64,000 nucleotides of DNA, from the NCBI GenBank assembly GCA_019753155.1, contig JAIELG010000008.1:1-64000 (forward strand), read 5' to 3'. The DNA comes from Burkholderiales bacterium. GTDB taxonomy: Bacteria; Pseudomonadota; Gammaproteobacteria; Burkholderiales; JABEVD01. Shown piece after piece: positions 2,625-31,097 of this stretch. The position numbers and the translations under genes were made by a program. Numbering within the stretch: the stretch's first letter is position 1; every line of letters begins with the position of its first letter. The notes beneath the pieces are model-generated. The model did no database searches and was not told where the DNA came from. It worked only from the letters and a program-made list of their open reading frames with translations.

Positions 2625-3558
2625 ATCCCGTCTCCTCCATGGCGATGGCCTTGCCTTGCGCATCCAGGAGCGTCAATCCCGCTCCCGCCGCGATCTTTCC
2701 TACCCTCGTGAGGCGCATGGAGAGGCTTTTCCCCAAGGCGAGAATTTCTTCCGACCTCTCCACGGGGGCGGTGAAACACAATTCGTAATCGTCCCCTCCC
2801 GCAAGGATCGCGTGCGCCGCCACAGGGTTTTCCCTGTATTTTTCCACAACTTCGGACAAGGGGATAGCATCGGCTTCGACAATCGCCGAAACTTTCGATC
2901 TTTCCAGTATATGACCGAGATCGGCGCAAAAGCCGTCGGAGAGATCTATCGCGCATCTCGAAATGCCGGCAAGCCGGATGCCCAGATCGACCCTTGGCAC
3001 CGGATTGCGCAAGGCTTCGAGGCAGGATGCGGCGTCCCCTTCATCGAGGACGATGCGTTTTTGCAGATGGGCAAGCCCGAGCGCTGCATCGCCGAGCGTG
3101 CCGGAGACCCATATTTCGTCCCCGGCCATCGCGCCGCTGCGCTTCAATGCAAGCGCCTCCTCGACTTCCCCCATGATCTGCACGCAGATGGCAAGCGGCC
3201 CTCGCGTCGTATCCCCGCCCACGAGATCGACGCAATAACGCTCCGCCTGCATCATGAAGCCCTTCGAAAAAGCATCCAGCCATGATTCTTCCGCTGACGG
3301 AAGGGCGAGCGCGAGAGTCGCCCATCTCGGCATTGCACCCATCGCCGCCATGTCGGAAAGATTGACGGCAAGCGCCTTTCTGCCCAGCAGAAAGGGATCG
3401 TCATCCTGGAAGAAGTGTATACCCGCTATCAGCATGTCCGTGGATACGGCAATGGTTTTCATCGAGGCGATCAGCGCGCAATCGTCCCCGATTCCGAGCA
3501 GCGCACCCCTGGCCTCACGGGTGAAATAACGGTCTATGATTTCGAATTCGGATGCCAA
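2608..3558 (-). CDS. thiL: Thiamine-monophosphate kinase
   Basis: The 316-residue protein phosphorylates thiamine monophosphate to thiamine pyrophosphate, the last step of cofactor synthesis. It has the full ThiL architecture (AIRS-like N- and C-terminal halves) with the metal-binding GIGDDCAL near residues 22-29, STDMLIAG near 39-46, VNLSDMAAMG near 65-74 and GGDDYELCF near 254-262. Length is typical of the family. It follows nusB with a two-base gap and overlaps pgpA, so expression is tied to the riboflavin genes. No TPP riboswitch is visible in the operon. Confidence 0.95.
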   Translation of the reverse strand: MASEFEIIDRYFTREARGALLGIGDDCALIASMKTIAVSTDMLIAGIHFFQDDDPFLLGRKALAVNLSDMAAMGAMPRWATLALALPSAEESWLDAFSKGFMMQAERYCVDLVGGDTTRGPLAICVQIMGEVEEALALKRSGAMAGDEIWVSGTLGDAALGLAHLQKRIVLDEGDAASCLEALRNPVPRVDLGIRLAGISRCAIDLSDGFCADLGHILERSKVSAIVEADAIPLSEVVEKYRENPVAAHAILAGGDDYELCFTAPVERSEEILALGKSLSMRLTRVGKIAAGAGLTLLDAQGKAIAMEETGYEHFR

Positions 3559-3561
3559 GAG

Positions 3562-3981
3562 CTACCCGAATTCCGGGGCACGCAAACGGGAGGCGAGCTT
3601 GTCCAGAACGCCGTTCACGTATTTGTGCCCGTCCGTTCCGCCGTAAAGCTTGGCGAGTTCGACCGCTTCGTTGATCACCACGCGGTAGGGGATATCGGAA
3701 TGATGTCTGAGTTCGAACGCGCCTATGAGCAGAATCGAGGCTTCCACGGGACTCAGTTCCGCAAAGGACCGGTCGAGATGGGGCTGGATCAGTTCCTGCA
3801 GCGTTCCGGACTCCGAAATCACGCCTTTCAGGAGCTTTGCGAAGTAGGCGCCGTCGAGCTCCGAAAAACCCTCGTCCTGCCTGAAATGGGATTCGATCTC
3901 TTCGGCCTCCCCCCCCGCGAGCTTCCATTGGTAGAGCGCCTGCAGCGCCGCCTCCCTGGATTTCCTGCGCTTTCCCTTCAT
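3562..3981 (-). CDS. nusB: Transcription antitermination factor NusB
   Basis: This 139-residue all-helical protein binds boxA RNA with NusE (S10) to support rRNA antitermination. The N-terminus ([19 protein letters not shown]) carries the arginine-rich start and the C-terminal part has the conserved [18 protein letters not shown] and [11 protein letters not shown]. The start ATG at 3981 overlaps the ribH stop as ATGA; a much longer upstream frame is only readthrough of ribH sequence in another frame. The ribH-nusB pairing is widely conserved. Confidence 0.94.
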
Positions 3982-4448
3982 GACAGCCGGCGCATGAGAT
4001 TCGCCATCTCTATCGCGACAAGGCCGGCATCCCTGCCCTTTTCGCCCATCCTGGAAAAAGCCTGGTCGTCGTTCTCCGTGGTGAGTATGCCGTTGGCAAC
4101 CGGAACGCCCGTCTCCTGCTGGACCTGCATCACGCCCCTTGCGGACTCGTTGGAAACCACTTCGAAATGGTAGGTTTCCCCCCGAATCACGGCGCCCAGG
4201 GCGACGAGCGCATCGTATTTCCCGCTCGAAGCGAGCTTCCTCAAGGCAACCGGAATTTCGAGCGCACCCGGCACGGTGACGAGAATCATGTCGGAGGTGT
4301 TCACCCCATGATGGGTGAGCGCCGCGACGCACCCGCTCAGCAAGCCTTCGGATGCCTCGATGTTGAACCGGCTCATGACCATGCCTATCCTGAGGCCGGA
4401 GCCGTTGAGATTCTTTTCGGTTTCCTCGATGTGTTCGTATTTCGCCAT
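3978..4448 (-). CDS. ribH: 6,7-dimethyl-8-ribityllumazine synthase
   Basis: The 156-residue enzyme condenses 5-amino-6-ribitylamino-uracil with 3,4-dihydroxy-2-butanone 4-phosphate, the penultimate step of riboflavin synthesis. Family motifs are present: [14 protein letters not shown] near residues 26-39, VPGALEIP near 59-66, and [22 protein letters not shown] near 85-106, with the proposed catalytic histidine in ETYHF. It lies 8 bases after ribBA, which supplies the butanone substrate, and overlaps nusB by four bases. Confidence 0.95.
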
Positions 4449-4456
4449 GATTTCCC

Positions 4457-5557
4457 CTATCCGATTTCATCCATCGATTCGACGAAGCCTGTCACTTCGA
4501 GGTCGAACCCCGTCATGCTCGGCATCTTCCTGGGCGCGGCAAGCAGGCGCATTTTCCGCACGCCGAGATCCCTCAGGATCTGCGCACCTATCCCGTAGTT
4601 TCTCAGGTCGACCTTGGATTCCGCCCTGGGAGCGGTGCGCATCGCGCGTTCGAGCAGGTCGCCTTCGCACTCCTTGCGGCCAAGAAGGACGATCACACCC
4701 GAATCCGCATTGGCGACGACATCGAGCGCATCGTTCAGCTTCCAGGAATGAGTCCTGCTCTCGATGTCGAGCAGATCCAGTACGGAAATGGGTTCATGCA
4801 CCCTGACCAGGGTATTCTTTTGTGCGTCGATTTCGCCCCTGACCAGCGCCAGGTGGCTCTGGTTCGAATTCCTGTCGAGATAGACGACGAGCCTGAATTC
4901 CCCGTAAAGCGTCCGGATCGGCCGCTCCGCCACGCGGCTCACCAGGGACTCGGTCTGGTTCCTGTAATGGATGAGGTCGGCTATGGCGCCTATCTTGAGC
5001 TGATGCATTGCGGCGAATTCCATGAGATCCGGAAGGCGCGCCATTTCCCCGTCCTCCTTCAGGATTTCGCAGATCACCGAAGCCGGGGTGAGGCCCGCAA
5101 GCGCCGTCAGATCGCACCCCGCTTCCGTATGCCCGGCCCTGACCAGAACCCCGCCCTTTTGCGCCATCACCGGAAAAATATGTCCAGGCTGAACGATGTC
5201 TTCGGGTTTGGCGTCCTTCGCCACCGCAGCCTGGATCGTCCTCGCGCGATCCGCCGCGGAAATGCCGGTCGTCACCCCGCTTGCGGCCTCGATCGAAACC
5301 GTGAAATTGGTTCCCATCGGAGCGCGGTTGGCGGCAACCATGAGCGGCAGGTTGATCTGCCTGCAGCGCTCTTCGGTGAGGGTGAGGCAGATCAGCCCGC
5401 GCCCGAACCTCGCCATGAAATTGATCGCCTCCGCCGTGACGAAATCCGCCGCCATGACGAGGTCTCCCTCGTTTTCGCGGTCTTCCTCGTCGACGAGGAT
5501 GACCATCCTCCCCTGCCTGAGGTCCTCTATGATGTGCGGTACCGGGCTCAGGGTCAT
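4457..5557 (-). CDS. ribBA: 3,4-dihydroxy-2-butanone 4-phosphate synthase fused to a degenerate GTP cyclohydrolase II domain
   Basis: Residues 1-200 form a complete RibB domain: [16 protein letters not shown] near 24-39, the phosphate/metal loop GTNFTVS near 82-88, and [14 protein letters not shown] near 141-154. RibB converts ribulose 5-phosphate to the four-carbon riboflavin precursor. Residues 205-366 have the RibA fold pattern ([13 protein letters not shown]...), but the zinc-binding cysteine triad expected after VRVHSEC is absent, replaced by a sequence without cysteines, and catalytic motifs are missing. A separate RibA must therefore exist elsewhere. Such inactive RibA halves are known in proteobacterial RibBA. 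It starts two bases after the ppa stop and leads into ribH. Confidence 0.92.
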
Positions 5558-5558
5558 G

Positions 5559-6107
5559 TCAGAACATCGGCTTGTGCGCAGCCTGCCGATAGCGTTCGGC
5601 CCCGCTCATGATTTCGGTTTCGGCTTCGGCCACGCCCACCCATCCGTCCACCTTAACCCATTTCCCCTTTTCGAGATCCTTGTAATGCTCGAAGAAGTGG
5701 CTGATCTGGGCAAGGGTCAGCTCGGGAATATCGGAATGGGAATGAATGTCCCGGTAAAGCGTGCAGAGCTTGTCCACGGGAACGGCCAGAACCTTGCCGT
5801 CCTCCCCGGACTCGTCCGTCATCTTCAGCATGCCTATCGCGCGGCTTCTCACCACGACTCCCGTCATCAGGGGCACGGGACTCAGCACCAGGACATCCAC
5901 GGGATCGCCGTCATCCGACAGCGTGTGGGGAATATAGCCGTAGTTGCAGGGATAATGCATCGCGGTCGACATGAAGCGATCGACGAACATCGCGCCCGTC
6001 TCCTTGTCCACTTCGTATTTGATGGGATCCCCGTTCATGGGAATCTCGACGATCACATTGAAATCGCGCGGAAGATCACGCCCGGAATTGACCCTGTCCA
6101 GATTCAT
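5559..6107 (-). CDS. ppa: Inorganic pyrophosphatase
   Basis: This 182-residue family I soluble pyrophosphatase hydrolyses pyrophosphate released by biosynthesis. It carries the PPase signature DGDPVDVLV near residues 66-74, the N-terminal [18 protein letters not shown] near 21-38 and the YPCNYGYIP segment near 52-60. Length is normal. It is the first gene of the leftward operon and abuts ribBA. The upstream gap to the divergent hpnD carries a shared palindromic -10 element. Confidence 0.95.
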
Positions 6108-6138
6108 AAAGCCTGCCCTTTGAAATTATTGGAAAACC

Positions 6139-6152
6139 CCATTATATAATGG
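6139..6152. promoter_or_regulatory. Palindromic -10 region between ppa and hpnD
   Basis: CCATTATATAATGG is a perfect 14-base palindrome containing TATAAT on both strands, placed between two divergent genes. It could supply the -10 hexamer for both; matching -35 elements are weak (TTGAAA at 6120-6125 on the plus strand, with a long 19-base spacer). Confidence 0.4.
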
Positions 6153-6234
6153 CAATCCGCAAATCATGAAAAATCTCGCTGCGGCAGAATCCGAAATCTG
6201 CTAAATTTGTCTATCCCAATTCAGCGAGCCAGCC

Positions 6235-7068
6235 TTGACGCCAGACCAATATTGCCGGGAAAGGGCTGCAAAAAGCGGATCGAGCTTCTATTACAGCTTC
6301 CTGTTCCTGCCACCCGTGAAACGCCGCGCCATCACCGCGCTCTATGCTTTTTGCAGGGAAGTCGACGATGTCGTCGACGAATGCAGGGACGCGAGCGTGG
6401 CGAGGGCGAAGCTCGCCTGGTGGCGGAGCGAGATCGAAGCGGTGTTTGCGGGAAATCCCGAGCATCCCGTGGGAAAAGCGCTCCAGGGCGTCGTATCGGG
6501 CTTCAACCTGCCGATCGAACTCTTCCGCGAAATCATCGACGGCATGGAAATGGATCTGGATCAGTCCCGCTATCCCGACTTCAAATCCCTGCAACTTTAT
6601 TGCTACCGGGTAGCCGGCGTTGTCGGTCTCCTTTCGGTCGAGATTTTCGGCTTCGAGGACAGAAAAACGCTCGATTACGCGCATGAGCTCGGCATTGCCC
6701 TTCAGCTCACCAACATCATCCGCGATGTCGGAGAAGACGCAAGGCGCAACAGGATCTACCTGCCCATGGACGAGATGGACCGGTACGGCGTCATGCCATC
6801 CGACATCATGAATTCGCGGGACAGCGATCGCTTCCGCGAACTCATGGCGTTCCAGATCGTTCGCGCGAAACGCCACTACGCCAACGCCCTCGACGCATTG
6901 CCGGCGTCCGACAGGCAGAATCAGAAACCCGGGCTCATCATGGCCGCCATCTATTCCGCGCTGCTCGATGAAATCGAAAAGGATCCCGGATGCGTCCTGA
7001 CGGGCCGCACCTCCCTCACCCCGATCCGCAAAGTCTGGATCGCATGGAAGACATGGGGACGGCGGTAG
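6235..7068 (+). CDS. hpnD: Presqualene diphosphate synthase HpnD
   Basis: The 277-residue protein belongs to the squalene/phytoene synthase family and most resembles HpnD, which joins two farnesyl diphosphates into presqualene diphosphate for hopanoid synthesis. Both aspartate-rich motifs are present: DDVVDE at residues 44-49 and NIIRDVGEDARRNRIYLP near 162-179. The start is an uncommon TTG at 6235, which begins exactly at the conserved N-terminus; no suitable ATG is nearby. It overlaps the start of hpnE by about 25 bases. HpnC, its usual upstream partner, is absent here. Plain phytoene or squalene synthase activity is the alternative. Confidence 0.85.
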   Translation: MTPDQYCRERAAKSGSSFYYSFLFLPPVKRRAITALYAFCREVDDVVDECRDASVARAKLAWWRSEIEAVFAGNPEHPVGKALQGVVSGFNLPIELFREIIDGMEMDLDQSRYPDFKSLQLYCYRVAGVVGLLSVEIFGFEDRKTLDYAHELGIALQLTNIIRDVGEDARRNRIYLPMDEMDRYGVMPSDIMNSRDSDRFRELMAFQIVRAKRHYANALDALPASDRQNQKPGLIMAAIYSALLDEIEKDPGCVLTGRTSLTPIRKVWIAWKTWGRR

Positions 7069-8306
7069 TCGGGGGCGGATATGCGGGACTCGCGGCGGCA
7101 GTCTCCCTCGCCGAAAACGGCGTCCCCGTCACCCTGTTCGAGTCATCCAGAACGCTGGGGGGGCGCGCCCGCGGCCTGATCTGCAACGGCGAGCGTCTGG
7201 ACAACGGGCAGCATATCCTGCTCGGCTGCTATGCCGAAACGCTGGCCCTGATCGAAAAAACATGCGGGGCTGCCGAGCCTTTTTCCAGAATCCGGCTCGA
7301 TCTTTCCATCGATGCATTCCGTCTGAAATCCCTGCCCCTTCCCCCGCCCCTCGACCTCCTCGCGGGCATGCTGCTCTCGCAAGGGCTGTCCTTTCAGGAG
7401 AAAGCGAGCGCGATCCGCTTCATTTCCCGCACAAGGCGCGCCAGACAGGATGCCGACATCGCTGTCGCAGAACTTTTGCGGCAAAACCGGCAAAGCGAGA
7501 AGCTCGTGCGTCTTCTCTGGAAGCCCCTGTGCATTTCCGCCCTCAATACCCCAATAGAAGCAGCCTCATCCCTTACATTCCAGGCTGTCCTGAAAGACGG
7601 TCTGGATGGGGCGGGGAGCGACATCATCATCCCCAAAGTCGATCTTTCGACCCTGTTTCCCCTGGGCGCGGCAAACCATGTCAGAGACAGGGGAGGGGAA
7701 ATCCTGACGTCAACCCCGGTCAGGGCCATACGCAAAAAAACGCGGGGGTTCGAAATCATCACCGACGCCTCGTCGCGTTCTTTTTCCCATGTCGTTGCGG
7801 CAGTCGCGCCCCAGCATCTTTCCAGGCTGATTGCGGAGCTGCCCGAAATAAAAGGGACCGGGCATTTCGCCTACCAGCCGATTTACACGACATATTCCAG
7901 ATATCCCGATGCAATCTCGCTTCCCCGCCCGATGATGGGGTTCTCTCGGGGACTTTCGCAGTGGCTGTTCGACAGGGGAACATGGTGCGGGCAGAAGGGC
8001 CTGATCGCGGCAGTCACAAGCTCGGAGGGCGAACATCTGACGCTTTCCCACGATGCGATTGCGAAAAAGGTCCACGAAGAAATCGGGAGGATCGTGCCCG
8101 GCCTTCCCCTCCCCCTCTGGCAAAAAGTCATCGCGGAAAAACGCGCCACTTTTTCATGCACCCCCAATCTCGAAAGGCCCGCGCAGAAAACTGCCGTTCC
8201 CGGATTCCATCTCGCCGGAGACTATACTGTCGGGAAATACCCCGCCACGCTGGAAGCCGCAGTGCGCAGCGGCCTCTCCTGCGCGCGTCTCATCGTTTCG
8301 TCCTGA
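7044..8306 (+). CDS. hpnE: Hydroxysqualene dehydroxylase HpnE
   Basis: This flavin amine-oxidase-fold protein (about 420 residues) has the N-terminal dinucleotide-binding motif VVGGGYAGLAAAVSLAENG and a C-terminal FAD motif AGDYTVGKYPATLEAAVRSG. HpnE reduces hydroxysqualene to squalene, the last step of the HpnC-D-E route. The start could be ATG 7044 or ATG 7053, both inside hpnD; 7053 has GGAAG close upstream. Coupling to hpnD supports the hopanoid assignment over phytoene desaturase. No squalene-hopene cyclase is in the window. Confidence 0.85.
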   Translation: MEDMGTAVVGGGYAGLAAAVSLAENGVPVTLFESSRTLGGRARGLICNGERLDNGQHILLGCYAETLALIEKTCGAAEPFSRIRLDLSIDAFRLKSLPLPPPLDLLAGMLLSQGLSFQEKASAIRFISRTRRARQDADIAVAELLRQNRQSEKLVRLLWKPLCISALNTPIEAASSLTFQAVLKDGLDGAGSDIIIPKVDLSTLFPLGAANHVRDRGGEILTSTPVRAIRKKTRGFEIITDASSRSFSHVVAAVAPQHLSRLIAELPEIKGTGHFAYQPIYTTYSRYPDAISLPRPMMGFSRGLSQWLFDRGTWCGQKGLIAAVTSSEGEHLTLSHDAIAKKVHEEIGRIVPGLPLPLWQKVIAEKRATFSCTPNLERPAQKTAVPGFHLAGDYTVGKYPATLEAAVRSGLSCARLIVSS

Positions 8307-8402
8307 CTGTTGCCATCGAATCCATTCGTATGATAAATTTCGCGGGCGCTGTCGAAGCGCGGAAACGGAGCGTACTTTAAATCTAAAAGAAAGGATCAAA
8401 AC

Positions 8403-8495
8403 ATGCAGGCATTGCCATGGCTCGTCGTACTCGTCTTCATCCTGCCGGCCGTCATCATGCTGTCCGACTACGGCAACATCAAGAAAAAACAGTAA
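8403..8495 (+). CDS. 30-residue predicted membrane peptide
   Basis: An ATG at 8403 follows AAAGAAAGGATCAAAAC, a reasonable ribosome binding site. The product has a single hydrophobic segment (LPWLVVLVFILPAVIML, about residues 4-20) and a polar, lysine-rich tail (NIKKKQ). It sits alone between hpnE and a strong hairpin terminator that begins 8 bases after its stop, which argues for a real transcribed unit. It is too short for family assignment; its layout resembles small membrane-protein regulators or complex subunits, but no function is proposed. Confidence 0.5.
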   Translation: MQALPWLVVLVFILPAVIMLSDYGNIKKKQ

Positions 8496-8502
8496 TCCGG
8501 GA

Positions 8503-8529
8503 AAAAGGGGCGCGTCCAGCGCCCCTTTT
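8503..8529. terminator. Bidirectional intrinsic terminator
   Basis: AAAAGGGGCGC (8503-8513) and GCGCCCCTTTT (8519-8529) form a perfect 11-base-pair stem with a five-base loop, with A and T runs suited to both directions. It separates the convergent small ORF at 8403 and the gene at 8529-8894. Confidence 0.9.
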
Positions 8530-8894
8530 CAATGCAGGCTCAGGCTGGGGACATGCATGTTGGCAAAATCGTCCTCGACCATGTCGGTCACCATGGAATG
8601 TATTTCCACGTCGAACCATTCCTTGAACAGCTTGAGATTCCTGCCCGAAGGCCAGAGACTCTCGTCCCCCACCCAGTCTTCCAGTTCGCGCTCGAAAAGC
8701 TCGTCGAAATTCGAATAGACGAATTGAAGCGCGCTTTCCTCGTCGTCGAACTCGGGAATCAGGAGGGCCGTGGCATCCTTCCTGAGCTCATCGAGCGTCA
8801 TCCCTTCGGGAACGGGATCGATGCAGTTCACGAGCCAATCCAGGAATTGCTGTTTGGGTTTGATGATGGCGAGGCTGCGATTGATTTCGTACAT
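8529..8894 (-). CDS. Conserved hypothetical acidic protein
   Basis: The 121-residue product starts MYEINRSLAIIKPKQQFLDW and is rich in aspartate and glutamate, with several aromatic residues but no signal peptide, membrane segment or recognised motif. The N-terminal part resembles small uncharacterised proteins found in betaproteobacteria. Codon usage matches its neighbours and the frame is clean. It ends at the bidirectional terminator and is separated by about 60 bases from the ATPase gene upstream on the same strand. I do not recognise a function. Confidence 0.75.
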   Translation of the reverse strand: MYEINRSLAIIKPKQQFLDWLVNCIDPVPEGMTLDELRKDATALLIPEFDDEESALQFVYSNFDELFERELEDWVGDESLWPSGRNLKLFKEWFDVEIHSMVTDMVEDDFANMHVPSLSLH

Positions 8895-8956
8895 GCTGTT
8901 TCCACAAAGATGATGCCGCAATTGTAACCGCAATCGGGATGCAAAATTATGAAATT

Positions 8957-10144
8957 TTACGGCGGATCGGGAAAGCGTCTGACTGCGGGATGGTAGGCTG
9001 TCCTGTAGGAATCGGGGAGCCTGGTCAGCGCATCGGCAGCCAGCGTCCTGGAAGGGTATGAGCCGTATACGACGAGATACCTGCCGGCCTTCACCGGATA
9101 GATGTAAATCGAATTCACGTCGATTGCGGAGGCCCCGAGGAAATGGGAAAGCCAGTCCTTCCTCTCGCGCCCGATCTCGAAGAGGCCAATGGTATACGCT
9201 TTCGGCCCGGAGAGGTGCCGCATGGAAATGCCGATTCTGTCCTCTACGGCATCGATGCTCATGCGGGGCTCGCTCAGAATTGCCGGCATCCCCAGCAGGA
9301 GAAGAAGCACAACGGCAGGGAGCATCCTGCCTGCGACGGGTTCGTGACCACTGTCCCTGACGGCGACCCTGGCGTGCTTTGCCCTGATCGTGATCGAACC
9401 GTCGACATAGGCCGCGAGCAACGATTTGTCGGCAAGGATGTTGATCCGCCTCATGAGTCCGTTCGAAGCAGAATAGATCAAGCTCGCCGCTCCCCGGCTG
9501 AACGGGTTTTCCCCGAAAAACCCGGCCGCCCGCATCCTGAACCCGAGATAATCCGCCATCGCATCGCGTGACATGGGCTTCACGGAAAAATGGTGCACGA
9601 TCCTGTCCCTGAGTTGCCTCATTCTGGGCAGGCCGAGCTTCCCGTCCAGCTCCGGCTGCCCGAACAGAATAAGCCTCAAGAGCTTGTGCCGGCTCGATTC
9701 GAGGTTGTAGAGCAGCCTCAATTCCTCCAGGGTTTCGCAAGGCATCGCATGCGCTTCGTCTATGATGACAAGCACGCTCCTGCCCCGTGCATATTTCTCG
9801 ATGAGGGCATCCTGCACCAGCTTCAAAACCCTGGCCGGGCGCAAATCCCGCGAATCCAGCCCCAGTTCGTCCGCAACGGCGTAGATGACATCCTCCCTGG
9901 AAATGGCCGGATTAGGCAGGTATATCGTTTCGACTGTTTCGGGCAGACTTTCCATCAGCATCCTGCACAGCATGGTTTTCCCGCTGCCCACTTCGCTCGT
10001 CACCTTGATGATGCCGTCCCCATGAGTTGCGGCATAAATCAAAACTTCGAGCAACTCTCCGCGCCCGGCGCCAGGATAGAAAAACCCGGTTGCCGGGGTA
10101 ATGGAAAAGGGCGCCTCCGAAAGGCCGAAATAAGAAAGGTACAT
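8957..10144 (-). CDS. ExeA/MshM-like AAA ATPase with C-terminal SPOR-like region
   Basis: The 395-residue protein starts MYLSYFGLSEAPFSITP, the typical N-terminus of the ExeA/GspA/MshM family. Walker A (EVGSGKT, near 48-54) and Walker B (VLVIIDEAH, near 125-133) are intact. A membrane segment near 277-293 (LPAVVLLLLLGMPAIL) is followed by a periplasmic tail with a SPOR-like pattern (YIYPVKAGRYLVVYGSY). Such ATPases help build type II secretion or MSHA-type pili across peptidoglycan. No secretion or MSHA genes lie nearby, so its partner is unknown. The ATG at 10144 follows the upstream ABC gene by 4 bases; a GTG at 10156 would overlap it. Confidence 0.8.
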   Translation of the reverse strand: MYLSYFGLSEAPFSITPATGFFYPGAGRGELLEVLIYAATHGDGIIKVTSEVGSGKTMLCRMLMESLPETVETIYLPNPAISREDVIYAVADELGLDSRDLRPARVLKLVQDALIEKYARGRSVLVIIDEAHAMPCETLEELRLLYNLESSRHKLLRLILFGQPELDGKLGLPRMRQLRDRIVHHFSVKPMSRDAMADYLGFRMRAAGFFGENPFSRGAASLIYSASNGLMRRINILADKSLLAAYVDGSITIRAKHARVAVRDSGHEPVAGRMLPAVVLLLLLGMPAILSEPRMSIDAVEDRIGISMRHLSGPKAYTIGLFEIGRERKDWLSHFLGASAIDVNSIYIYPVKAGRYLVVYGSYPSRTLAADALTRLPDSYRTAYHPAVRRFPDPP

Positions 10145-10148
10145 GGCG

Positions 10149-10874
10149 TCAATCACCGATTGCGCGCAGGAAAGCCTGCTCGATGGTGCGCTCCGACGCT
10201 ATCAGGCAAAGCGCGTCCGGCGTTCCGGAAAATTTCAGCTCTCCATCGTGCAGCACGATCATCGTGTCGCAAATTTCACCCATTTCGGCAAGGGAATGGG
10301 ACGTGAAGAGCAGCGTTTTTCCCGCATCCTTCATCCGCACAAGCTTCGCCTTCACCAGAATCCTGGCCTTCGCATCCAGCCCGCTCATCGGTTCATCGAG
10401 TACGAACAGATCCTTTCCGCTCAAAAAACAGGCGGCAAGCCCGAGCTTCTGCGTCATCCCCTTGGAAAATGCCCTGACCGGCTTGTCGAGCGCATCCCGC
10501 TCTAGATCCAGGTCTTCCAGAACCGCGAACATTGCGGATTTATCCGGCTCGATATCATGGAGTTTCATGGAATAGCTCAGGAAATCCCCGCCATTCAGGT
10601 AGTAAGGCGGATTGAAGCGTTCCGGCAGATAGGCGAGCCTTGCCCTGGCGCGGCTCTCGACATGGGATACGCCGAAAATCTCGACCCGCCCGGAATCGAG
10701 CGCGCAAAAATCGAGCATGCACTTGATGAGCGTGGTCTTTCCCGCGCCGTTCACTCCGGCCAATCCGAGGAAACGGCCGGAATCGAGGCTGAAATCCACA
10801 TCACTGAAAACGACTGATTTTCCGAATTTTTTCCCTGCGCCATAAAACCCGAGCGCCGCATTGCCGTGAAGCAT
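10149..10874 (-). CDS. ABC transporter ATP-binding protein (ABC-2 type, orphan)
   Basis: This 241-residue ATPase has Walker A GVNGAGKTT (near residues 40-48), the signature region AFSKGMTQKL (near 134-143), Walker B LFVLDEPMSGLD and the switch histidine TSHSLAEM. The sequence style matches ATPases of ABC-2 exporters of the CcmA/NatA type. No permease gene is adjacent: downstream is the ExeA-like ATPase, and divergently upstream lies the Mla operon. In related genomes an ABC ATPase/permease pair often sits between mlaB and ibaG, so this may be a displaced remnant of such a pair; that is inference. Confidence 0.85.
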   Translation of the reverse strand: MLHGNAALGFYGAGKKFGKSVVFSDVDFSLDSGRFLGLAGVNGAGKTTLIKCMLDFCALDSGRVEIFGVSHVESRARARLAYLPERFNPPYYLNGGDFLSYSMKLHDIEPDKSAMFAVLEDLDLERDALDKPVRAFSKGMTQKLGLAACFLSGKDLFVLDEPMSGLDAKARILVKAKLVRMKDAGKTLLFTSHSLAEMGEICDTMIVLHDGELKFSGTPDALCLIASERTIEQAFLRAIGD

Positions 10875-10971
10875 CGAACTCCCCTTAAGTTACCCTTAAA
10901 CTCTCCACTCCAATATAGCAGCCGTCCGCCGCAATCCAAGGCACTGTCTTTGTCCTGGAAGGTGGTTTAAA

Positions 10972-11811
10972 ATGGCGGCTTATTCTCTGGGAAACATTGT
11001 GCAGTCGGCGAATTTCGTAGAAATCAGAAACCTCAATTTCACCTATGACACGCGCCCGATCCTGAAGGGCATCGACATGGATATCCACAAGGGCCAGGTT
11101 GTTGCGATCATGGGCGGGAGCGGCTGCGGCAAAACCACGCTCCTGAGACTGATCGGCGGGCAAATCAGGCCGACCGGAGGACACGTCAGGTTCGACGGAG
11201 AGATCATCCACGAGCTCGACAGGGACGCGCTTTATGAGACCCGGCGCAAGATGGGCATGCTGTTCCAGTTCGGCGCGCTTTTCACGGATCTTTCGGTGTT
11301 CGACAATGTCGCGTTCCAGATGCGCGAACATACCGACCTGCCCGAGGCGATCATCCGCGATCTCGTCCTGATGAAGCTCGACGCGGTCGGCCTGCGCGGC
11401 GCGAGGGATCTGATGCCGAACCATCTTTCGGGCGGAATGGCAAGGCGCGTGGCCCTGGCGAGAACGATTGCGCTCGACCCCATGCTCATCATGTACGACG
11501 AGCCTTTCACGGGGCTCGATCCGATATCGCTCGGAGTCATCGGCAACCTGATCAGGAAGCTCAACGATGCGCTCGGCGCGACTTCCATCGTCGTCACGCA
11601 CGACGTTCAGGAATCCTTCCAGATCGTCGATTATGTCTATTTCATCTCCGAAGGCGTCGTCGTCGCGCACGGCACGCCCGAGGACATGTACGCGTCGAGC
11701 GTCCCGTTCGTTCACCAGTTCATACACGGCGAAATAGACGGACCCGTACCGTTTCACTATCCGGCCTTGCCCTACCCGGAAGATCTTTTCCTGGAACGCT
11801 CCCATGCTTGA
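10972..11811 (+). CDS. mlaF: Phospholipid ABC transporter ATPase MlaF
   Basis: The 279-residue ATPase energises the MlaFEDB inner-membrane complex that moves phospholipids between the inner and outer membranes. Walker [10 protein letters not shown], the signature [13 protein letters not shown] and Walker [14 protein letters not shown] are intact, followed by [10 protein letters not shown]. The ATG at 10972 has GGAAGG upstream; a GTG at 10999 is the alternative. The protein carries a longer tail than E. coli MlaF (to [13 protein letters not shown]). It overlaps mlaE by 8 bases and heads mlaFEDCB. Confidence 0.95.
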
Positions 11812-12598
11812 GCATCTGGACAGGCTCATCAGGAAAACCGGGCATGCGGGCATCGATGCCATATGGCGTCTGGGTTATGCCGGAAAGTTCATGTTCCTTA
11901 CCCTGATCGGTTCGGGAACGAGCTTCAGACGCTTTCACCTCACCATACGCGAAATTTATTTCACCGGGGTGCGCTCGCTCATCATCATCGTCGTTTCCGG
12001 CCTGTTCGTAGGCATGGTTCTGGGGCTGCAAGGCTACGAAACCCTGCAACGCTACGGCGCCTCGTCCTCCCTGGGCGTCATGGTGGCGCTCGCCCTCGTG
12101 CGCGAACTCGGCCCGGTGGTTGCCGCGCTCCTGTTCGCAAGCCGGGCAGGTTCCGCGATAACGGCGGAAATCGGCCTCATGAAGGCGACGGAACAGCTTT
12201 CCGCCATGGAAATGATGGCGGTCGATCCGATATCGAGGGTGGTGGCCCCGCGCTTCTGGTCCGGCGTAATCTCCATGCCGCTCCTCGCTGCGATATTCAA
12301 CACGATGGGCATTTTCGGCGGCTACCTGATCGGAGTGGTGCTGATCGGGGTGGACGAAGGCTCGTTCTGGTCGCAAATGCAGGCCGGGGTCGATCTCAGG
12401 TATGACATCATGAACGGGGTGATCAAGAGCTTCGTTTTCGGCATCGCGGTGACGGCGATCGCGGTTTTCGAAGGTTATGATTCCCCGCCCACGGCGGAAG
12501 GCGTTTCCAGTGCCACGACGCGCACCGTTGTCACGTCTTCCCTGTCCGTTTTGATTCTGGATTTCGTTTTGACCTCATTCATGTTTCGGGGAGCTTGA
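11804..12598 (+). CDS. mlaE: Phospholipid ABC transporter permease MlaE
   Basis: This 264-residue inner-membrane permease has the MlaE family core: several hydrophobic helices, the [21 protein letters not shown] motif near residues 123-143 and the ATPase-contacting region following it. It binds phospholipid within a homodimer under the MlaD ring. The gene overlaps mlaF and ends 4 bases before mlaD, consistent with stoichiometric production. Confidence 0.95.
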
Positions 12599-12602
12599 TT
12601 TA

Positions 12603-13070
12603 ATGGAACGCACAACACTGGATTTATGGGTAGGCATTTTCATCGCCGCCGGCATCGGAGCGATACTCCTGCTCGCACTCAAGGTAGGAAACATGAGCAG
12701 CTTCAATGGTTCCAACACATACCAGATTTATGCCTATTTCGACAACATCGGCGGATTGAAGCAGCGCGCCCCGATCAAGAGCGCGGGCGTCGTGGTCGGC
12801 AGGGTCGCGGCGATCGCTCTGGATCCGAAGCAGTACAAGGCCCGCGTCACGTTCAACCTCGACAGGCAATACCAGTTCTCGAAGGACAGCACCGCTTCCA
12901 TCCTGACTTCCGGACTGCTCGGCGAGCAGTATATCGGCATTGAAACCGGGGCAGAAGACGCCATGCTCAAACCCGGAGACACCCTGGCATTCACCCAGTC
13001 GGCCGTGGTTCTCGAAAAATTGATCGGTCAATTCATCTTCAACAAGGCCGGCTCAGGCAATCACAACTAG
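12603..13070 (+). CDS. mlaD: MlaD, MCE-domain phospholipid-binding subunit
   Basis: The 155-residue protein has one N-terminal membrane anchor (LWVGIFIAAGIGAILLLAL, near 7-25) and one MCE domain (YFDNIGGLKQRAPIKSAGVVVG, with the glycine-rich strand ILTSGLLGEQYIGIE near 100-114). MCE proteins form a periplasmic hexameric ring that passes phospholipids to MlaC. Length is typical for MlaD. It sits between mlaE and mlaC. Confidence 0.95.
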   Translation: MERTTLDLWVGIFIAAGIGAILLLALKVGNMSSFNGSNTYQIYAYFDNIGGLKQRAPIKSAGVVVGRVAAIALDPKQYKARVTFNLDRQYQFSKDSTASILTSGLLGEQYIGIETGAEDAMLKPGDTLAFTQSAVVLEKLIGQFIFNKAGSGNHN

Positions 13071-13080
13071 AAAGGTCATC

Positions 13081-13677
13081 ATGAGAAAACTGTTAACCCT
13101 ACTCCTCCTCGTCCCGGCGCTGGCTCATGCGGAAGTCGCGCCTGATGTATTAATCAAGGATCTCGCCCAGGAAGTGACCACCATCATCAAGCAGGAGAAA
13201 GCCAGAAACTCGAACAAAAAGGAATTGGCTGTAGCCGTCGACACCAAGATCATGCCCCATTTCGATTTTACCCGGATGACGAAGCTGGCTGTCGGCAAGG
13301 GGTGGAAGGATGCATCGCCCGAGCAGCAGAAGGCGCTGACCCAGGAATTCCACACCCTGCTCATGAACACCTATTCCAACGCGCTGCATTCCTACGAGAA
13401 CGAGCCCATAGAAGTCCTCCCGCTATCCGCCCAACCCGCATCGGATCAGGTCATGGTACACAGCCGCGTCATCCAGAATGGCAAGGAACCCGTCACGATC
13501 GATTACAGGATGGAAAAAACCGGCCAGGGATGGATGATTTTCGATGTGGCAGTGGAAGGCGTGAGCCTCGTCACGAATTACCGCAGCACGTTCCAGACCG
13601 AGATCAGCAATACCGGCATATCCGGCCTCATCAAGCTGCTCGAGGACAAGAACAAGAAATTCGATACAAGCAAATGA
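13081..13677 (+). CDS. mlaC: Periplasmic phospholipid-binding protein MlaC
   Basis: The 198-residue protein begins with a Sec signal peptide (MRKLLTLLLLVPALAHA, likely cleaved after residue 17). The mature part has the Ttg2D/MlaC fold pattern with HFDFTRMTKLAVGKGW near 60-75 and VSLVTNYRSTFQTEI near the C-terminus. MlaC carries a phospholipid between MlaD and the outer-membrane MlaA complex. In many relatives an mlaA gene lies within this operon; here it does not. Confidence 0.94.
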   Translation: MRKLLTLLLLVPALAHAEVAPDVLIKDLAQEVTTIIKQEKARNSNKKELAVAVDTKIMPHFDFTRMTKLAVGKGWKDASPEQQKALTQEFHTLLMNTYSNALHSYENEPIEVLPLSAQPASDQVMVHSRVIQNGKEPVTIDYRMEKTGQGWMIFDVAVEGVSLVTNYRSTFQTEISNTGISGLIKLLEDKNKKFDTSK

Positions 13678-29269: not shown

Positions 29270-29278
29270 CCCTCATTC

Positions 29279-29354
29279 GCCGGCATAGCTCAGACGGTAG
29301 AGCAGCTGATTTGTAATCAGAAGGTCGTGGGTTCGATTCCTATTGCCGGCACCA
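29279..29354 (+). tRNA. tRNA-Thr (anticodon UGU)
   Basis: A complete 76-base cloverleaf: acceptor GCCGGCA pairs with TGCCGGC (29344-29350), the D arm is AGCTCAGACGGTAGAGC, the anticodon loop TTTGTAA gives anticodon TGT, the T arm carries GGTTCGATTCC, and the CCA end is encoded. It closely parallels known bacterial tRNA-Thr(UGU). The gene's 3' end borders a repeat-rich, gene-poor stretch, a typical integration site for mobile elements. Confidence 0.96.
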
Positions 29355-29428
29355 GATAAAGCCAGTGAATTCAACAGATTGACGTGTTTTTTCTTGCCGA
29401 CAAGGCCAACAAAATCATCAGAAAAATC

Positions 29429-29524
29429 ATTCTGGCACACTGCAACTGTGCCAGAATTGTGCCAAAATGATTGCTCTTTTTACCCCGAATTGTTGTTTCC
29501 TTTGTCTGTGCCAGTTTCGTGCCA
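29429..29524 (+). repeat. GTGCCA repeat cluster behind tRNA-Thr, possible integrase arm-site relic
   Basis: GTGCCA occurs at 29448, 29459, 29508 and 29519: two pairs, each 11 bases apart, the pairs exactly 60 bases apart. Both pairs fit TGTGCCAGwwwyGTGCCA. The first copy also forms a perfect 11-base inverted repeat with 29429-29439 (ATTCTGGCACA, seven-base loop). Regular repeats just past a tRNA 3' end resemble arm-type sites of a tyrosine recombinase. The rest of 29355-29644 contains no gene I can support. Confidence 0.45.
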
Positions 29525-29644
29525 TTCTCTTTTCATGGCTTCAAGATTGATGCACTTCTAGTAGCTCAATCCGCCATTTTTCCTGGTGAATTCAATTCGC
29601 TTGGCTAGGGGAGGGCAGGTCATCGAAAGCAAGCTTCGCGCTCG

Positions 29645-29773
29645 ATGGCGAATCGTTACGGCGTAACGAAAAGGGAAATGCTGGAAAGACTTATCATCGA
29701 GGCCGACGATGCGATTGTCAAAACACTGGAAATCGATACCACGGAATGGGATCAATATTTCGTGACGCGGTAA
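29645..29773 (+). CDS. 42-codon ORF, possible C-terminal remnant of a mobile-element protein
   Basis: The frame encodes a helical, charged peptide (ANRYGVTKREMLERLIIEAD near residues 2-21, then TLEIDTTEWDQYF). The spacing of hydrophobic residues and the ending look like the C-terminal part of a small DNA-binding or replication-associated protein rather than random sequence. The frame stays open for 13 codons upstream of the ATG, to a TAG at 29606, with basic residues there, so it may be a truncated end of a longer gene. I do not recognise the family. The gap 29774-29926 holds nothing I can identify. Confidence 0.35.
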   Translation: MANRYGVTKREMLERLIIEADDAIVKTLEIDTTEWDQYFVTR

Positions 29774-29926
29774 CGTCACTATAGCTAAAGTCGAAAATCA
29801 TCCTGAATATGGCGCGGCACCCGTGTCGGGCAGTTGCATGAACTCCAGATCAAACTCATCGTGAAAAACAACAGTCCAACTCATATTTCGTTATGGATGA
29901 AAAGCAATATGCATACAAGATCATAT

Positions 29927-30103
29927 TCAACCCAGCTTCTTCGCCAGTTCTTCCGCCCGAGAACGAATTGATCCGCTATCGGACAGCCGCAGGGCCTTTC
30001 AGGCTGCTTCGAAAGAGCCGGGGAAGCGCTCATCCAGCCAGACGAAAAACAGCAGAAAGCCGAATTCCATGGAATGCCCGATCAGGATTTCCCGGATATC
30101 CAT
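29927..30103 (-). pseudogene. Small membrane-protein frame interrupted by one stop codon
   Basis: From ATG 30103 the minus strand encodes 34 residues with a hydrophobic stretch (SMEFGFLLFFVWLDERFPG), stopping at TGA 29999-30001. The same frame then continues for 23 more codons with a protein-like ending (SRAEELAKKLG) to a second TGA at 29927. AAGG lies just before the ATG. This may be a 58-residue gene broken by a nonsense mutation, or a genuine 34-residue protein. It follows the L,D-transpeptidase gene by 53 bases in the same direction. Confidence 0.35.
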
Positions 30104-30156
30104 GCGCCTTGCGGCGATGAAAGGAATTCCAGCTCGAAAGTTGCTGCGAGAACGTT

Positions 30157-30642
30157 TCAGACGAACTCCAGAATCTCGACTTCGGTACCGGCATCCACCC
30201 TTTCGAAAAGATCGAGCAAATCAGCGTTATGCATCCTGATGCAGCCTATCGAACCCGGTTTCCCCATCTCGGCGCTGTCAGGGGAGCCATGGATGTAGAT
30301 GTAGCGGCGCATCGTGTCGACGTCCCCATGCCTGTTGAAGCCAGGCTCCTTTCCTGAAAGCCAGAGTATTCGGCTCAAAATCCAGTCCCGCCCGGGGAAT
30401 CTCTCGCCAAGCTCCGTAGAATAGATTTCGCCTGTGGGCCGCCTTTTCACGAAAACAGTATTGACGGGCATGTCCGCCCCGATTTTCGCCCTGATCACAT
30501 GACGTCCCCTCGGGGTCATGAAGCTGCCCATCTTTTCCCCAACCCCGTTTTTCGAAGTCGAAACCGGGTATTCCCTCAGCACTTCGCAATCCTTCCCCAG
30601 CAATCTCAGAGTTTGCGACTCTATGCCTATCCTTATTCTCAC
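30157..30642 (-). CDS. L,D-transpeptidase (YkuD domain) without a signal peptide
   Basis: The 161-residue product has the YkuD catalytic motif IYIHGSPDS...GSIGCIRMHNADLL, with the nucleophile cysteine and histidine intact. Family members make 3-3 crosslinks in peptidoglycan or attach proteins to it in the periplasm, yet no signal peptide or anchor is visible from the chosen start. The GTG at 30642 overlaps the tadA stop (GTGA); an upstream ATG at 30690 also gives no signal sequence. Export route or a cytosolic role is unclear. Confidence 0.85.
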   Translation of the reverse strand: MRIRIGIESQTLRLLGKDCEVLREYPVSTSKNGVGEKMGSFMTPRGRHVIRAKIGADMPVNTVFVKRRPTGEIYSTELGERFPGRDWILSRILWLSGKEPGFNRHGDVDTMRRYIYIHGSPDSAEMGKPGSIGCIRMHNADLLDLFERVDAGTEVEILEFV

Positions 30643-31097
30643 GCTTTCCGTCTCTTTTCCGAAAAAAACTGTTTCAGGATTTCGCCGCATTCCTCTTTCA
30701 GGATGTTCGAACTCAGCGTGGCATGATGGTTGAGCCGTGAATCCGAAAAAACATCCAGAACGCTGCCGCAGGCTCCTGTTTTAGGGTCGGATGCGCCATA
30801 AATCAGGCGTGAAATCCTAGCGTGCTGGATCGCGCCCGCGCACATCAGGCAGGGTTCGAGCGTCACGAAAAGCGAGCAGCCCACCAGCCTGTAATTCCCG
30901 ACCCGCCTTGCCGCATCCCTCATGGCCTCGATTTCCGCATGGGCCGTGGGATCATTCGAGGAGATGGGGCGATTGCATCCCTCCCCCACGATTTGCCCAT
31001 CCAGGACGACAATCGCCCCCACCGGCACTTCCCCCATGGACATGGCTTTCTGCGCGAGCGCCAGTGCAAGGCGCATGTATTCCTCATCGGTCGTCAT
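30639..31097 (-). CDS. tadA: tRNA-specific adenosine deaminase
   Basis: The 152-residue zinc enzyme deaminates A34 to inosine in tRNA-Arg(ACG). The zinc motifs THAEIEAM-type (TAHAEIEAMRDA, with the proton-shuttling Glu) and TLEPCLMCAGAI are intact, plus GEVPVGAIVV near the N-terminus. Length is typical. It overlaps the L,D-transpeptidase gene, a pairing seen in other betaproteobacteria. Confidence 0.94.
   Translation of the reverse strand: MTTDEEYMRLALALAQKAMSMGEVPVGAIVVLDGQIVGEGCNRPISSNDPTAHAEIEAMRDAARRVGNYRLVGCSLFVTLEPCLMCAGAIQHARISRLIYGASDPKTGACGSVLDVFSDSRLNHHATLSSNILKEECGEILKQFFSEKRRKA

Follow-up and report, generated by a model that had tools for sequence, protein, structure and literature searches.

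Repeats behind a tRNA-Thr gene of a Burkholderiales bacterium are most likely putative integrase docking sites left by a decayed element

Why does a regular array of short repeats lie directly behind a tRNA gene, in a stretch with few genes? The window, i.e. the whole 64-kb stretch of DNA analysed here, has a sole tRNA gene according to ARAGORN, tRNA-Thr(TGT) (29279–29354, + strand; also Rfam RF00005), whose 3' end is the presumed attachment core. The genes ahead of it we take to be sspA and sspB. The original prediction had read the repeats as an integration scar, citing two units exactly 60 bp apart, paired GTGCCA cores one helical turn apart, an 11-bp inverted repeat, a start about 75 bases past the tRNA and a gene-poor stretch of about 800 bases. 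This repeat array was confirmed. The two units start at 29447 and 29507, with a half-site spacing of 11 bp in each. Pair 1 (29447–29464, − strand) reads TGTGCCA(N4)TGTGCCA on the + strand, which on the minus strand gives two copies of TGGCACA spaced by 11 bp (letters TTGGCACAATTCTGGCACA). Pair 2 (29507–29524, − strand) lies 60 bp from pair 1 and reads TGTGCCA(N4)CGTGCCA on the + strand, its half-sites differing from each other by one letter. A single half-site TGGCACA (29433–29439, + strand) is inverted relative to both pairs and lies inside the inverted repeat (ATTCTGGCACA at 29429–29439 and TGTGCCAGAAT at 29447–29457). From 29429 on, the letters are ATTCTGGCACA, CTGCAAC and TGTGCCAGAATTGTGCCA, and 60 bases on, TGTGCCAGTTTCGTGCCA. 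With the next half-site, the inverted repeat matches at 14 of 15 positions (29425–29439 and 29458–29472). The inverted repeat starts 74 bases after the tRNA, the arm sites begin 74–93 nt after its end, and the gene-poor stretch measures 802 bases (29355–30156); the next protein gene after the array ends at 30157.

The array stands out statistically in its exact form. The motif GTGCCAG(N4)GTGCCA (GTGCCAGNNNNGTGCCA) occurs exactly twice in the 64 kb, at 29448 and 29508, and none of 100 dinucleotide shuffles reached two occurrences. With two mismatches allowed, the motif is unremarkable (4 matches compared to 1.44 expected; 7 of 100 shuffles reached 4). Among the other 6-mers of the window, none makes up two pairs at 11-bp spacing within 300 bp, and 200 first-order Markov sequences, each of 64 kb, likewise contained no such double pair.

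The same repeat was found beside integrases at tRNA 3' ends in related genomes, as the scar reading had anticipated. The motif matches in 11 of 60 genomes, including the window's own, and the ten matches outside the own genome are spread at one per genome. Half of these (genomes G004, G031, G044, G023 and G053) lie at a tRNA 3' end beside a tyrosine integrase or its relic, the tRNA being tRNA-Arg, -Leu or -Met; the other five showed no tRNA and no obvious integrase within the 3-kb loci. Within the own genome there is one further match, inside a gene that reads as hicA-type and probably a coding chance. The letters of pair 1, TTGGCACAATTCTGGCACA, are exactly those before the integrases of loci L046 (from the same genus), L051 and L112 (a locus cut by a contig end), and close variants are present in L082 and L110. 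The strict double-pair pattern was found in the own genome only among 250 genomes of the order. A looser pattern (tRNA end, 40–100 nt, pair) matched at 17 places in 15 of 399 order genomes, own included; six of these loci were inspected (L126, L128, L131, L138, L140 and L142), of which L131, L138, L140 and L142 looked tRNA-linked, and the remaining places were judged from the match alone. In viral contigs, the exact motif occurs in 12 stretches, four of which are identical in sequence (reversed control 0). An integrase was recognised near 1 of the 12 and, when a different pair was examined in the same way, near 0 of 7. The motif alone is not specific to integrases in viral contigs and is no proof by itself. 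Relatives of the L049 integrase were present at two loci in viral contigs.

The spacing is far more constant than the letters. The genome collection contains 42 relatives of the L046 integrase, of which 33 with a complete N-terminus were used and 9 dropped. In 26 of the 33, the 300 bp before the integrase start contain a perfect repeat, 7 nt or longer, whose two copies start exactly 11 nt apart. A spacing of 12 was observed in 2 of 33, and the other spacings from 5 to 25 in 0–2 of 33. Control stretches 800–3300 bp upstream gave 0–2 of 25–26, and shuffled sequences a mean of 0.37 and a maximum of 3. An imperfect pair was seen by eye in several of the seven exceptions. Of the 42 L046-type loci, 26 have a tRNA gene according to ARAGORN, mostly just ahead of the pair. 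The letters of the pair vary by element (TTGGCACA, TTGGGACA, TTGGTGTAA, TTGCCGTG, TGGTAAC, TGCCATA, TTGTCACC and more), and where both ends lie in the fetched stretch (L048, L051, L086), the pair recurs at the element's far end in the same direction. Identical short words exactly 11 bp apart are thus a hallmark of the attachment sites of related tyrosine integrases. In searches of the open-licence PMC literature we saw no statement of this rule, and we do not claim novelty for it.

According to the original prediction, no integrase gene remains. This holds for the gene body, which is gone, but the last 33 nt survive. They encode the last ten codons and the stop of a tyrosine integrase, RAEELAKKLG* (29959–29927, − strand), identified by blastn and by comparison with L046. 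The blastn identity is 90–93% over 30–31 nt in three relatives (E 4e-5 to 4e-4), where the targets are integrase ends, and 10 of 10 residues are identical to the C-terminus of the L046 integrase from the same genus. The tail lies about 400 bp from the arm pairs and belongs to the same family as the pair-associated integrases. The debris beyond it, which extends to where the next host gene ends (29960–30156, no strand assigned), may hold further, badly decayed integrase sequence. When the alignment was extended beyond the tail, the real score was reached by 1, 2 or 3 of 200 shuffles in 4 of 13 test rows, two of which are the same L046 end, and by 7–144 of 200 shuffles in the other nine. Similarity to integrases further upstream in the gene, past 29959, is marginal.

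Based on these observations, we consider the array to be a decayed attL-like junction of a tRNA-integrating element with its own tyrosine integrase, mostly lost since, with a probability of about 0.86. The repeats would most likely be putative integrase docking sites left by this element, and it is their position and family association that suggest the label 'arm-type'. The same letters at five tRNA-integrase junctions elsewhere, the 11-bp rule in the integrase family and the integrase tail support the scar reading. Further support comes from the position directly after a tRNA, the recurrence of the pair at the far end of related elements, the intact and broken elements at tRNA-Met in the own genome (described below) and the plasmid-type gene remnant between the arm sites and the tail. 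A mobile element would have inserted at the 3' end of tRNA-Thr, leaving the tRNA whole. Its integrase would have held the TGGCACA half-sites with the N-terminal arm-binding domains, with the catalytic domains at the tRNA 3' end; presumably two integrase molecules sat on each unit, on one face of the DNA and one helical turn apart. Most of the element would have disappeared later, namely the body of the integrase, the second arm pair and the tRNA repeat at the far end. The survivors would be a single arm with its five half-sites, a small plasmid-type gene in broken form and the final ten codons of the integrase, all of them presumably from one element.

As expected for an attL-type junction, the window contains an intact tRNA 3' end and arm-type repeats of the kind seen at such junctions, whereas the integrase gene is represented by its last 33 nt only and a second tRNA 3' end (attR) is missing. 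Because so little of the integrase gene is left, we call the locus a remnant and not an element, and with neither attR nor an integrase body the element cannot be delimited. With both gone, the site in the window is now a relic. A CIME consists of the remains of an element that are flanked by attL and attR and lack the integrase. The window resembles such relics in having attachment-site remains without a working integrase; unlike a CIME, it has no second att site and is thus a scar rather than a mobilisable element.

Several features speak against the decayed junction: the missing attR and integrase body, the direction of the half-sites, the motif's lack of a tie to integrases in viral contigs, a tail of only 33 nt, and the double unit, which none of the other genomes among the 250 of the order has. 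Most L046-type elements have the integrase start beside the tRNA. Both pairs of the window have half-sites that face the tRNA, with the integrase tail (− strand) located beyond the pairs, so that the half-site direction is opposite to that in most relatives of the matching integrase. Such a mirror layout is known, but from integrase groups other than this one. The integrase genes of L140 and L050 have their 3' end turned to the tRNA, where it overlaps the pair or directly adjoins it. Of the 24 relatives found for the L140 integrase, 9 have a repeat of 6 nt or more at spacing 11 around the gene end, 3 around the start and 0 further downstream, and 19 of the 24 L140-type loci have a tRNA gene.

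Alternatively, there may have been two superposed insertions, where the arm sites come from an L049/L140-type integrase, whose 3' end lies over the arm pair and ends in GT-x-x-AQ, and the LAKKLG tail from a different element. The direction of the pairs fits the layout of L049, L050 and L140, and pair 2 reads NGTKLAQ on the minus strand, similar to NGTNLAQQ and HGTFMAQ. Furthermore, tRNA-Met of the own genome carries two elements in tandem. However, we detected no further residues of an L049/L140-type integrase upstream of pair 2, which in that frame is preceded by a stop codon a few codons away. We regard two insertions as possible but rather doubtful. As this explanation shares the scar reading with the single decayed junction, the two are not mutually exclusive. 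Independently of the window, the final codons of the integrase gene contain the arm pair at L049:6558–6579 (NGTNLAQQ) and L140:1500–1528 (HGTFMAQSQK), and thus the site fixes the C-terminus of the integrase in the L049/L140 group.

The tandem elements at tRNA-Met (locus L199, G000:C1:168500–183000, at 2989–13230) comprise one intact and one broken element. The intact element of 7.9 kb consists of the tRNA, a pair, cargo, an integrase with its C-terminus towards the tRNA, a second pair and a 50-bp copy of the tRNA 3' end. Its pair letters are TGTAACCC twice, and its integrase matches Arm-DNA-bind_3. Directly behind it, the broken element still has a single half-site and the relic of an integrase, together with a third copy of the tRNA. 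The own genome thus keeps living and broken versions of the window's layout. The order of tRNA, 11-bp-spaced pair, cargo, integrase C-terminus towards the tRNA and pair corresponds to that of the window's presumed element; in contrast to the window, the L199 element is complete, uses the letters TGTAACCC, has the 50-bp tRNA copy at its far end, and encodes an Arm-DNA-bind_3 integrase.

Apart from the integrase tail, the 800 bases contain a 42-codon remnant of a small (83–86 aa) plasmid-type protein (29645–29773, + strand; tblastn E 9e-11 to a Raoultella plasmid protein). Relatives of this protein are encoded on 10 of 72,556 plasmid records, mostly from Cupriavidus, Caballeronia and Burkholderia, and no Pfam or PHROGs family matched the remnant. 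In locus L073, a full-length relative immediately follows an ORF that we read as IS21 istB, and GTTAC-type palindromes are present in both this relative and the window remnant. When 29270–29800 was compared to plasmids and phages, the matches listed (20 of 238 and 20 of 677 records) included only the tRNA gene plus the Raoultella plasmid gene. An Rfam scan found the tRNA, one sub-threshold match on its other strand and nothing else.

The repeats could also be plasmid iterons or operators of another regulator that were brought in by a plasmid fragment and are unrelated to integration. The plasmid-type gene remnant is only 120 bp away, and the Raoultella plasmid with that gene has iteron-like repeats spaced by 12 bp. 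Iterons form longer arrays, however, and the letters and the 11-bp spacing in the window match tRNA-integrase junctions, which makes this origin improbable. Even less probable is that the inverted repeat is an intrinsic terminator hairpin and nothing more. There is a terminator-like match at 29457–29429 (− strand; 2 in the region compared to 0.9 expected) and the single-strand folding z-score is −1.98, but a hairpin leaves the second unit 60 bp away and the same letters at other tRNA-integrase junctions unexplained. A sigma-54 promoter is hardly credible: TTGGCACAATTCTGGCACA fits the spacing of the consensus GG-N10-GC (−24 GG, −12 GC) and the genome encodes sigma-54, but the minus-strand site points into the tRNA antisense, no gene follows on that strand, and other pairs of the family (TTGCCGTG, TGTAATT, TTGTTGTAA) do not fit.

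Returning to the decayed junction, the original prediction had proposed to look for a second copy of the tRNA 3' end outside the window. In the own genome, no second tRNA-Thr 3' end was found within 3 mismatches of 25; we conclude that the far end has been lost. Two outcomes that would have contradicted a scar, conservation of the repeats in element-free relatives and a match to a known regulatory site, were not observed. Comparing 29360–30165 across nine genomes of the genus (own included), the relatives align only in pieces of 30–34 nt, one inside the small-protein remnant (29654–29687) and the other in the integrase's last codons (29927–29957). In four of eight relatives (G001, G002, G003 and G007), tRNA-Thr could be read past; other sequence follows there, and three of the four have differently lettered pairs behind tRNA-Thr. 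The L,D-transpeptidase-like and then tadA-like genes (30157–31097) follow tRNA-Thr only in the window genome when compared to its genus relatives, where they adjoin cheR, cheB and a squalene-synthase-like gene (names assigned by eye) instead. The scar thus coincides at its right border with a rearrangement, either in this lineage or in that of the relatives.

Two of the relatives carry further structures at the same tRNA-Thr. In G003 (locus L039, G003:C32:48000–62500, at 5098–12669), a 50-bp copy of the tRNA 3' end and matching pairs delimit a 7.5-kb insertion. The pairs (TAGGCTACA twice at 11-bp spacing) lie at 5265 and 12518, and nowhere else in the nine genus genomes. PADLOC models assign the cargo of the insertion to RT_UG5-nitrilase (DRT) and to a pair of SIR2-type and short-Argonaute genes; inspecting the ORF list of the insertion by eye, we saw no integrase. 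In G007 (locus L040, G007:C32:1–4500, at 1418–1592), five pairs at spacing 12 are stacked, identical within and different between pairs (GTACGCA, ATGGTTAACA, GGTTGACAG, GGTTGCCA and GGTATCCA), together with an 11-spaced GTAACCC pair nearer the tRNA. The stack could represent stacked scars or sites for several integrases.

Similar arrangements are known from other systems. In those integrases that have an arm-binding domain, it holds short sites that flank the core, whereas the catalytic domain cuts the core (PMC8138268; PMC2951348). The site in the window would have functioned in the same manner. IntS of ICEMlSymR7A has five short arm-type motifs with the consensus TGKTGGTATC around the attachment core, which are needed for integration (PMC11963761). 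As in the window, several short motifs lie by the core, and the consensus is close to the family words TGGTAAC and TGGTACA; those sites were tested experimentally, and in the window a single arm survives. In Oenococcus prophages at tRNA genes, the direct repeats of attP differ with the type of integrase and were proposed as arm sites (PMC8074189). Their words include TTTGCACA and TGGTACAA, and the letters are integrase-specific as in the pair family; unlike the relic in the window, these are complete prophages of Gram-positive hosts (PMC8074189).

The array itself would be an ordinary genomic fossil at a tRNA gene, although the rule behind its repeats is unusually clear. Of more interest than the window are the defence cassette of L039, which lacks an integrase, and the pair stack of L040, and the wider 11-bp regularity also merits attention. 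Tentatively, and rather doubtfully, the pairs might be a readable key, with a constant grammar (two identical short words whose starts are 11 bp apart) in at least three tRNA-targeting integrase groups and free letters; cassettes without an integrase but with matched end keys, such as the one in L039, might then be moved by a foreign integrase with the same key, and the window would be a used-up lock at a defence hotspot. The 11-bp rule provides a simple computable mark for the ends of attachment sites, also where the integrase is gone, as in scars, or was never present, as in passive cassettes. With it, one could put to the test by which integrase a given defence cassette without its own integrase is moved.
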